Of a stretch of DNA of 51,000 bases, positions 7,968 through 49,389 are shown in pieces; position 1 is the stretch's first letter; every line of letters begins with the position of its first letter. The notes under the pieces are model-generated. The model ran no database searches. It was not told where the DNA came from and saw only the letters and a program-made list of their open reading frames with translations. The DNA comes from Acidobacteriota bacterium (GTDB lineage Bacteria > Acidobacteriota > Terriglobia > 2-12-FULL-54-10), in NCBI GenBank assembly GCA_009691245.1, contig SHUM01000022.1, forward strand, positions 1-51,000. The letters are read 5' to 3'. Made by a program: the position numbers and the translations under genes.

Positions 7968-8627
7968 CTACTGGGGACCAAGTGCCTTGGCGGCCTCGTT
8001 GAGGGCCTCGATAATCTGCTCATTAGTGGGCCGGACGCGGGCATCCACATCCGTGAATTTCCAGGCCACGCGACCGAGCGAGTCGATCACGAATGTCGCC
8101 GGGTGCGGAACAATGTAGCCTTCCGGGTTGGACTCGTTCTTGAACAGCTCGGGATTCAACTGCCCGTAGCGCGCGATCACGCGATGATCGGGATCGGCAA
8201 GCAGCGTGAAGTTCGGCGGCCCGCCCTGCTCCTTCGCCTGACGCGCCACCATCTTGGCCGCGCCCTCCACATCATCGGGACTCAGCGCCAATATAACCGT
8301 GGACTGATTCAACTCGCTATTCCCATCAAACAAATTTTTCAGCTGGCCCAGCTGCGTGGTGCATGCGCCTCACCAATGGCCGCGATACATCACCAGCACC
8401 ACATTCTTACCGCGGTACGCTGAAAGCTGGTGAACCTTGCCATTCTCATCCTGCAGATGGAAATCGGGAGCCGTATCGCCCGCCACCACGCGCCTCAAGT
8501 CAAAGGGCGACAAGAAGTAGCTATCCGCCGGACCCTCGACCGGCCCCAGCGCGGCCTGTGCCGTCGCCTTTTCGGCAGCGAGCAGCGGCGCCAGCATTAG
8601 TGCCAGCAGCAATCTTCGCAGAAACAT
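7968..8627 (-). CDS. Exported peroxiredoxin-like selenoprotein candidate (in-frame UGA)
   Basis: Reading through the TGA at 8370-8372 gives one 219-residue AhpC/TSA-Redoxin protein. Residues 1-24 form a signal peptide. The thioredoxin-fold core begins at GDTAPDFHLQDENG. The UGA is codon 86 in the context YRGHW-U-GAC-TTQL, exactly where homologues carry the peroxidatic cysteine of RGxWCxxC, and a resolving cysteine is kept at +3. The frame and the family similarity continue unbroken to SLGRVAWKF and the stop at 7968. A stem-loop at 8340-8354 sits where a bacterial SECIS should be. The start at 8627 follows GGAGGGGAATCC. The alternatives are a nonsense pseudogene or two proteins, but the downstream part has no suitable start. 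A second such gene is at 48144-49283. Confidence 0.85.
8340..8354 (-). promoter_or_regulatory. Candidate bacterial SECIS stem-loop
   Basis: In the mRNA, CAGCU and AGCUG pair across the 5-nt loop GGGCC. The loop occupies nucleotides 24-28 counted from the U of UGA, the distance seen for the E. coli fdhF SECIS loop. The candidate at 48971-48987 has its loop at the same distance and shares the GG start. SelB binding is inferred. Confidence 0.6.
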
Positions 8628-8876
8628 GGATTCCCCTCCTCAAGCAGGATGCGTTAATCAGGCACAAGCAAAGCACTCGCAGTCATTATAGGCAGCGCTA
8701 GAATGAATGCAACCCATAAATCACGCGATGCGAGTCACTCACGATTTCCAACTTTCCACTGCGCATCTGCCATCCGCGCGCCCAAGGCGTGGTATTCTTA
8801 TTATTAACGGCAGCATGGCAGACCCCTTCGACTGATGACGCCGCTCCGAACCGATTCCAAAGGATAGCAAAATATT

Positions 8877-48143: not shown

Positions 48144-49283
48144 TTACTTGGCAAGTGTCGGCGGCTGGTGCTGGATTGGTTCGGGGACGCGGTCGCGGTC
48201 GAGCGGCTCCAGCTTGAAGGTGAACTCGACGGGCGCGGTTTGCGGCAGGTAGCATATCTTATCGTCGCAGGCCTGGTAGCGCAGCTTGCCGCGGACCTTC
48301 AGCGTCTTATCGCCATCCAGAATGGGCTTCAGGATCGACTCCGCCGCCAGCGTGATGTCCTGCGTCAGGCGGAACTTCGCTTCGTACACCGGGACGATCT
48401 CATTGATGGCCGGCAGCAGCAGCAGCTTGCCCTTGGGATAGTTCACGTCTTTCGCGACGTAGTTTGCAGACGCTTCGAGTTCCCACTTGATGGGGATGTA
48501 GTTCTTCACCTCCGGCGTGTAGACATGCATTTTCGGCGGCAGCACGAAGTCGGCGACCAGAGTCAGGCGCAGATTGGGTCGAACGACATCCGTGGTCGGA
48601 TAGTAGCGGACTTCCAGATAATCCGTCTTCACCACGGTCTCCCTGGTTCCTTCCACCGACCCGAATTCCTTTAACAGTATGGTCGGCGTCGTGTAGCGGT
48701 CCTGATAGCGGTCCTCGAAGTACTTCGACTTCACCGTGCCGCTCGCGTCCACGATGAACGTGCCGGGATACGGCACGCCCGCCCACAAGTGCCCTGCTGG
48801 CACGGCGGTGTTCAGTACGCCGAAAGCGCGGATGGCACTCGACTTCTCGTCGGCCAGCACGGGCAGCGTGATCTTCTGACGGCGCGCGAAGTCCTGCACA
48901 ATGGGCAACGTGTCATAAGTAAAGACCACGATTCCCAGTCCGCGCTTCTTAACTTCATCTGAATACTTTTGCAGCTCGACCAGCTGCGTCTTGCAGTACG
49001 GTCACCAATCGACCGAGCGCTGGAAGACGATCATGGCCCCGTTCGGCCCTACAACGGATTTGAAGTCGCGCGGCTTGCCCGTCTGATCCGGCACACTAAA
49101 GGCGGGAATCTTCTTGCCCACTGCGATGCCGGTGGAGACGGGGGGAGCTTCACGCCAGGCATCGCTTGGCTGGATCGCCTGTCCGGCGGAAGACTGTGCG
49201 AACGCCATGCCCGGCGAGATCGGCGCTAACAACGCCGCCAGCAAGGATATCCATCGAACAAGCCGTTTAGAGCCGTGTCGCAT
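48144..49283 (-). CDS. Exported redoxin selenoprotein candidate with DsbD-N-like domain
   Basis: Reading through the TGA at 49002-49004 gives one 379-residue protein. Residues 1-30 form a signal peptide. A thioredoxin/AhpC-TSA domain follows (GKKIPAFSVPDQTG), with the UGA as codon 94 in VDW-U-PYC-KTQL, the position of the first active-site cysteine of WCxxC; the second cysteine is intact. The fold continues through GIVVFTYDT, YPGTFIVDASG to about residue 200. The C-terminal half resembles the DsbD N-terminal/DsbC-corrector domain and has KLRYQACDDKICYLP with a cysteine pair. GGAGG six bases before the ATG at 49283 fixes the start. An ideal SECIS-like hairpin lies at 48971-48987. A periplasmic thiol-disulfide role is inferred. 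Confidence 0.88.
48971..48987 (-). promoter_or_regulatory. Candidate bacterial SECIS stem-loop
   Basis: In the mRNA, GCAGCU and AGCUGC form a perfect 6-bp stem with the loop GGUCG. The loop is at nucleotides 24-28 counted from the U of UGA. The E. coli fdhF SECIS has GGUCU in its loop at a similar distance, and the candidate at 8340-8354 has its loop at the identical position. Confidence 0.72.
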
Positions 49284-49389
49284 TGCGTTCCTCCGTAGTA
49301 ACCAAGAATCACTGCGAGGTTAGATTCCAATCCAACCGGCAGAGATGCAACGATGCCATTGAATGTTCGACCGCTGGACTCATCCGTCT

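Follow-up and report, generated by a model that had tools for sequence, protein, structure and literature searches.

An Acidobacteriota redoxin gene with a predicted selenocysteine codon is fused to a DsbD/ScsB alpha domain

The alpha domain of DsbD (nDsbD) reduces the thioredoxin-fold proteins DsbC, CcmG, and DsbG (PMC7347389), and a chain of ScsB, TlpA, and PprX in Caulobacter reduces peroxides in the envelope (PMC5403849). A 2026 review of 119 selenoprotein families and subfamilies, which served as our comparison list, includes UxxC Prx-like and Redoxin proteins and the rhodanese/DsbD fusion-like protein TsoB (PMC13188914). A fusion of a redoxin with DsbD_N was absent from those 119 entries, none of the NCBIfam models (June 2026) fitted the protein described here above its cut-off, and no description of the fusion was found in open-licence papers, so that an earlier mention elsewhere is possible. 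An earlier note on this DNA had called the fusion unusual among described selenoproteins; this held for the literature but not for the phylum, as the fusion was common within Acidobacteriota.

The window, that is, the whole stretch of 51,000 nucleotides analysed, belongs to a genome of 3.43 Mb in 96 contigs, assigned to Acidobacteriota through named relatives and matching contigs. Its minus strand carried a frame of 379 codons running from ATG to TAA with one internal TGA, at codon 94, in the context FQRSVDWUPYCKTQLVELQ (Table 1). The TGA almost certainly encodes selenocysteine (Sec), and we classed the product as a selenoprotein of the UxxC redoxin kind to which a DsbD/ScsB alpha domain is fused, the latter being of the reductant-relay type. 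The in-frame TGA within VDW-U-PYC-KTQL and the ribosome-binding site, found 5 nt before the ATG, were present as the earlier note had read them, and the continuation of 285 residues past the TGA followed from the frame length and the position of codon 94. The N-terminus, where a putative signal peptide was placed, had low pLDDT in the AlphaFold2 model. One neighbour of the gene in the window encoded a substrate-binding protein of the NMT1-like type, the other a long protein without a Pfam match. Among 20 named loci, no partner gene was conserved near the fusion, and nothing conserved in their neighbourhoods linked it to CcdA or to a substrate.

Table 1. Mapped parts of the fusion gene, in window coordinates.
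Feature	Coordinates	Strand	Basis
Whole gene, Sec-redoxin/DsbD-alpha fusion, 379 aa, Sec read at 94, predicted exported	48144..49283	-	Sequence; Pfam
Ribosome-binding site GGAGGA	49289..49294	-	Sequence
N-terminal signal peptide (putative), residues 1-29	49197..49283	-	Read by eye: KR...LLAALLAP...AFAQ
AhpC-TSA/Redoxin domain, residues 55-194	48702..49121	-	Pfam; Foldseek to BcpB, AhpE, ResA
UGA codon 94, read as selenocysteine, first position of UxxC	49002..49004	-	Homologue frames; ResA/peroxiredoxin alignments
Cys97, invariant, proposed resolving partner of U94	48993..48995	-	42-member alignment
bSECIS hairpin GCAGCU-GGUCG-AGCUGC	48971..48987	-	Folding, -10.4 kcal/mol; homologue comparison
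DsbD_N (alpha) domain, residues 240-350, the genome's only one	48234..48566	-	Pfam; fold search
C339-x4-C344, invariant redox pair in the alpha domain	48252..48269	-	Alignment

Pfam searches of the read-through product returned AhpC-TSA at residues 55-185 (E 2.8e-26), Redoxin (5.3e-17), and, in the C-terminal half, DsbD_N (E 2.4e-9; 37.7 bits against a gathering score of 25), and both regions scored over the curated thresholds. AhpC-TSA was found in all 42 aligned members and DsbD_N in 40 at E 0.001, which confirmed in 40/42 the pairing of Redoxin with PF11412 that the sequence had suggested. Sixteen columns of the 42-member alignment were invariant, including W93, U94, C97, C339, and C344, and the last four of these were the sole Cys/Sec residues of the window protein. 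The C-terminal cysteine pair seen at first reading was present in KLRYQACDDKICYLP, with C339 and C344 inside the DsbD_N match; the accompanying comparison with DsbC did not stand, as the domain is a DsbD/ScsB alpha domain and not of the DsbC type.

Structure prediction with the 42-member alignment gave a pLDDT of 89.8 and a pTM of 0.84. Foldseek matched the N-terminal half to the folds of BcpB, AhpE, and ResA. The C-terminal half, modelled alone, reached a pLDDT of 91.7, and its sole fold match below E 0.001 was the N-terminal domain of Proteus mirabilis ScsB, a modest match at TM 0.53; a sequence search with the profile of this domain returned no relative of known structure. In alignments, U94 fell on the first Cys of the ResA-type CxxC and on the Thr of the peroxiredoxin TxxC, and C97 fell on the peroxidatic Cys of peroxiredoxins. 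These positions indicated a thioredoxin-type UxxC within an AhpC/TSA fold and not a canonical peroxiredoxin. The canonical PxxxTxxC/U active site was absent, Sec occupying the Thr position, and a PF00578 domain with UxxC was present, as in the Prx-like thiol:disulfide oxidoreductase. The fusion protein had neither the membrane domain PF02683 nor a gamma domain. Elsewhere in its genome, a single DsbD_TM was found, of the CcdA type and followed by a ResA-like thioredoxin (contig C55), with no other DsbD_N domain and no full DsbD.

We infer the export, substrate, and electron path of the fusion protein, and consider it fairly probable that the Sec redoxin is reduced by its own fused alpha domain, fed via CcdA and a ResA/TlpA-like thioredoxin. 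In the periplasm, U94 would attack a substrate, either a peroxide or a disulfide, and resolution by C97 would leave a Se-S bond. Through C339-C344, the fused alpha domain could then reduce the U94-C97 bond within the same molecule, and would itself be re-reduced by the CcdA-fed, membrane-anchored thioredoxin. The simplest electron order would run from CcdA to the ResA-like thioredoxin, the alpha domain, U94-C97, and finally the substrate, in effect a ScsB-TlpA-peroxiredoxin-like chain with its last relay fused onto the enzyme. The view that this is a selenoenzyme joining a Sec redoxin to a thiol-relay domain was upheld for the Sec site and for both domains, while its enzymatic role we still infer. 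If the mechanism is correct, one exported molecule would combine the Sec catalyst with its own electron donor. Exported selenoenzymes often have no known electron source; in this one, the likely donor domain would lie in the same chain.

The main rival to this mechanism is the reverse electron order, in which the UxxC redoxin would behave as a gamma-like domain, be reduced by CcdA, and pass electrons to an alpha domain serving outside clients. In DsbD, the thioredoxin-fold gamma domain does reduce alpha (PMC7347389), the domain set of the fusion corresponds to gamma plus alpha without the membrane part, and the genome has CcdA and lacks DsbD. Such a flow is nevertheless unlikely, as the redoxin half is of the AhpC/TSA (Bcp/AhpE-like) type and not a plain thioredoxin. 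Moreover, Sec normally sits at the substrate-attacking site and not in a relay. Alternatively, the alpha domain of the selenoprotein may serve solely for docking or in a copper-related role and pass no electrons to the redoxin. This would accord with the binding of copper(I) by ScsB and ScsC (PMC8900818) and with the existence of stand-alone DsbD_N proteins in Acidobacteriota, but the invariance of C339 and C344 in 42/42 aligned members argues against it and makes it quite unlikely.

A hallmark of selenoprotein genes was found at codon 94: the UGA lies in frame, and the homologues carry either UGA or Cys at that position. In a survey of 396 genomes of Acidobacteriota, full-length relatives occurred in approximately 51, mostly with an internal TGA. 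From these, 55 frames were extracted, 47 with TGA at the same codon and 8 with Cys, so that both versions of the fusion exist in the phylum; close homologues, rather than ending at the UGA, either read through it or had Cys in an unbroken frame. The retention of TGA at one codon in 47 homologous genes bore out the earlier judgement that chance mutation was very unlikely. The stretch around the TGA in the Sec genes read R-S-A-D-W-U-P-Y-C-K-T-Q-L-V-E-L, and the Sec forms spanned many Acidobacteriota families. The nearest relative found, at 60% identity (MEKX01000013.1, Acidobacteria bacterium RIFCSPLOWO2_12_FULL_54_10), was a Cys form, with one unbroken frame of 375 residues and Cys at the Sec position.

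A maximum-likelihood tree of the 55 members required at least seven changes between Sec and Cys. SelB scored above the cut-off in 27/29 Sec-form genomes versus 4/19 genomes in which only the Cys form was seen (Fisher p 4e-7), and the two Sec-form genomes without SelB above the cut-off both had tRNA-Sec. The Sec form thus goes with the Sec machinery, and the Cys form is mostly in genomes without it; one genome (G116) carried both forms together. A further scan of 84,980 species genomes covered Cys patterns only. Among its best 80 loci, the full-length fusions belonged to records whose titles name Acidobacteriota lineages and to one MAG, and relatives from Alpha- and Gammaproteobacteria and Opitutaceae matched the redoxin part only. 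The MAG is titled Bifidobacterium breve (CALQBJ020000168.1) and had a Cys form of the fusion on a contig that was probably mis-binned or mislabelled. Variants of the architecture were also seen, including a putative 772-residue frame joining FG-GAP repeats, a Sec redoxin, and DsbD_N (L051:1507-3822, minus strand) and, in other genomes of the phylum, three DsbD_N-like proteins that stand alone and contain YQACDDxxCY.

Decoding of UGA94 by SelB and tRNA-Sec, aided by a bSECIS hairpin just downstream, was strongly supported. The 6-bp stem (GCAGCU paired with AGCUGC) started about 15-17 nt after the UGA, at the 18th base counting from its U, and only 1 of 200 shuffles folded as well. Published criteria for bSECIS elements are a loop of 3-9 nt, a stem of 4-16 bp, G in the first two loop positions, a spacing of 16-37 nt, and an MFE of -7.5 or lower (PMC13188914). 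The element lay within all of them, with a 5-nt loop (GGUCG), six pairs, 20 nt from UGA to loop, and -10.4 kcal/mol, although a 42-nt fold from the UGA also had a rival structure of similar energy. An Rfam search of the element gave no meaningful match. This was expected, as Rfam is not known to include a general bSECIS model.

Comparison of the homologues showed that pairing in the stem followed the Sec codon. All 282 stem cells were paired in the 47 Sec genes (the hairpin being whole in every one) versus 32/48 in the 8 Cys genes, where it was usually disrupted, and slid controls reached at most 37.5% of cells. All six pairs were retained in just 2/21 Cys loci from named records, a set that overlaps the eight. 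Compensatory changes included G-C, C-G, and U-A at the base of the stem and a change from G-C to A-U in which CAA was matched by TTG; seven double-changed cells were observed versus 1.3 in shuffles. The loop GU was retained in 47/47 Sec genes versus 4/7 Cys genes. The QLVEL motif itself favours the stem; synonymous resampling gave an expected full stem in 18% on average (0.18 per gene) against the 47/47 observed, and the hairpin as a by-product of motif and codon bias was rejected. The product over 16 families, one gene each, was 6e-13, under an assumption of independence that is only roughly true. One Sec homologue had UHHC in place of UPYC and retained the hairpin. Two Cys-form genes, in genomes without SelB, had a complete SECIS-like stem, as if recently converted from Sec. 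With at least seven exchanges and decay of the hairpin after Sec loss, the family offers a good natural experiment on Sec retention.

The genome of the window was not one lacking Sec genes, as it contained tRNA-Sec (73 bits; ARAGORN anticodon tca), SelB (361 bits), SelA (552 bits), and SelD (358 bits), a complete machinery. The SelD gene (contig C9) had an in-frame TGA of its own, in AAG-U-ASKL. A second UGA redox gene lay in the window at 8028-8639 (minus strand), encoding a 204-residue AhpC-TSA redoxin, predicted to be exported, whose TGA lies in RGHW-U-GAC-TTQLGQL; 3' of the UGA, this gene has a CAGCUG-GGC-CAGCUG stretch of its own. A third (contig C20) was peroxiredoxin-like, FTGG-U-IREL, with Sec at the peroxidatic point.

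A plain stop at codon 94, whether by mutation or sequencing error in a truncated gene or pseudogene, would agree with the normal use of TGA at the ends of other window genes. It is extremely improbable and was ruled out by the same TGA in 47 genes, the conservation of the protein beyond it, the covarying hairpin, the full Sec machinery, and the exchange of Sec with Cys. A general reading of UGA as sense (code 4 or 25) has a negligible probability and was likewise ruled out, as 7/22 window genes stopped at TGA, indicating an unchanged standard code, and as SelB and tRNA-Sec were present.

With UGA94 read as selenocysteine, the fusion extends the selenoproteins of Acidobacteriota, which we found hardly described, by a conserved architecture present in multiple families; annotation that treats UGA as a stop will have broken the gene in two or missed it. 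We tentatively suggest that, in Acidobacteriota, a DsbD/ScsB alpha domain may have separated from its membrane protein to serve a selenoenzyme as an internal reductase, with CcdA supplying the electrons in cells that lack DsbD. If so, a fused pathway of envelope peroxide or disulfide reduction would have undergone repeated Sec/Cys swaps across the phylum.

Among known families, the Prx-like thiol:disulfide oxidoreductase (PF00578) and the "Redoxin family protein" (PF08534) share with the fusion the AhpC/TSA-Redoxin fold and Sec as the first residue of UxxC (PMC13188914, Table 1). By that table's description both are single-domain, whereas the fusion adds DsbD_N with its invariant Cys pair. The redoxin half also has relatives in Hyphomonadaceae, namely single-domain redoxins with WCPYC. 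The best NCBIfam match of the window redoxin was the SelL-related redox protein NF040769, at 47 bits against a cut-off of 120; this model was matched weakly by all 42 members and, unlike the fusion, is without DsbD_N. SelL proper has UxxU. TsoB (NF045694) is also a selenoprotein, and its name refers to a DsbD-like part, but it has a UxxxxU motif and a rhodanese-like domain and no redoxin. The likeness to DsbD and ScsB lies in a DsbD_N match above the gathering score, a Cys pair within it, and the ScsB N-terminal domain as best fold match; the difference is that the fusion, lacking a membrane (beta) or gamma domain, is joined instead to a Sec redoxin. The Caulobacter ScsB-TlpA-PprX system (Cho et al. 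2012, summarised in PMC5403849) similarly links an envelope peroxiredoxin with an alpha domain within a single reductive chain. There, going by that description of PprX, the partners are separate Cys-based proteins and ScsB is full length, whereas here the alpha domain and a Sec redoxin form a single protein.
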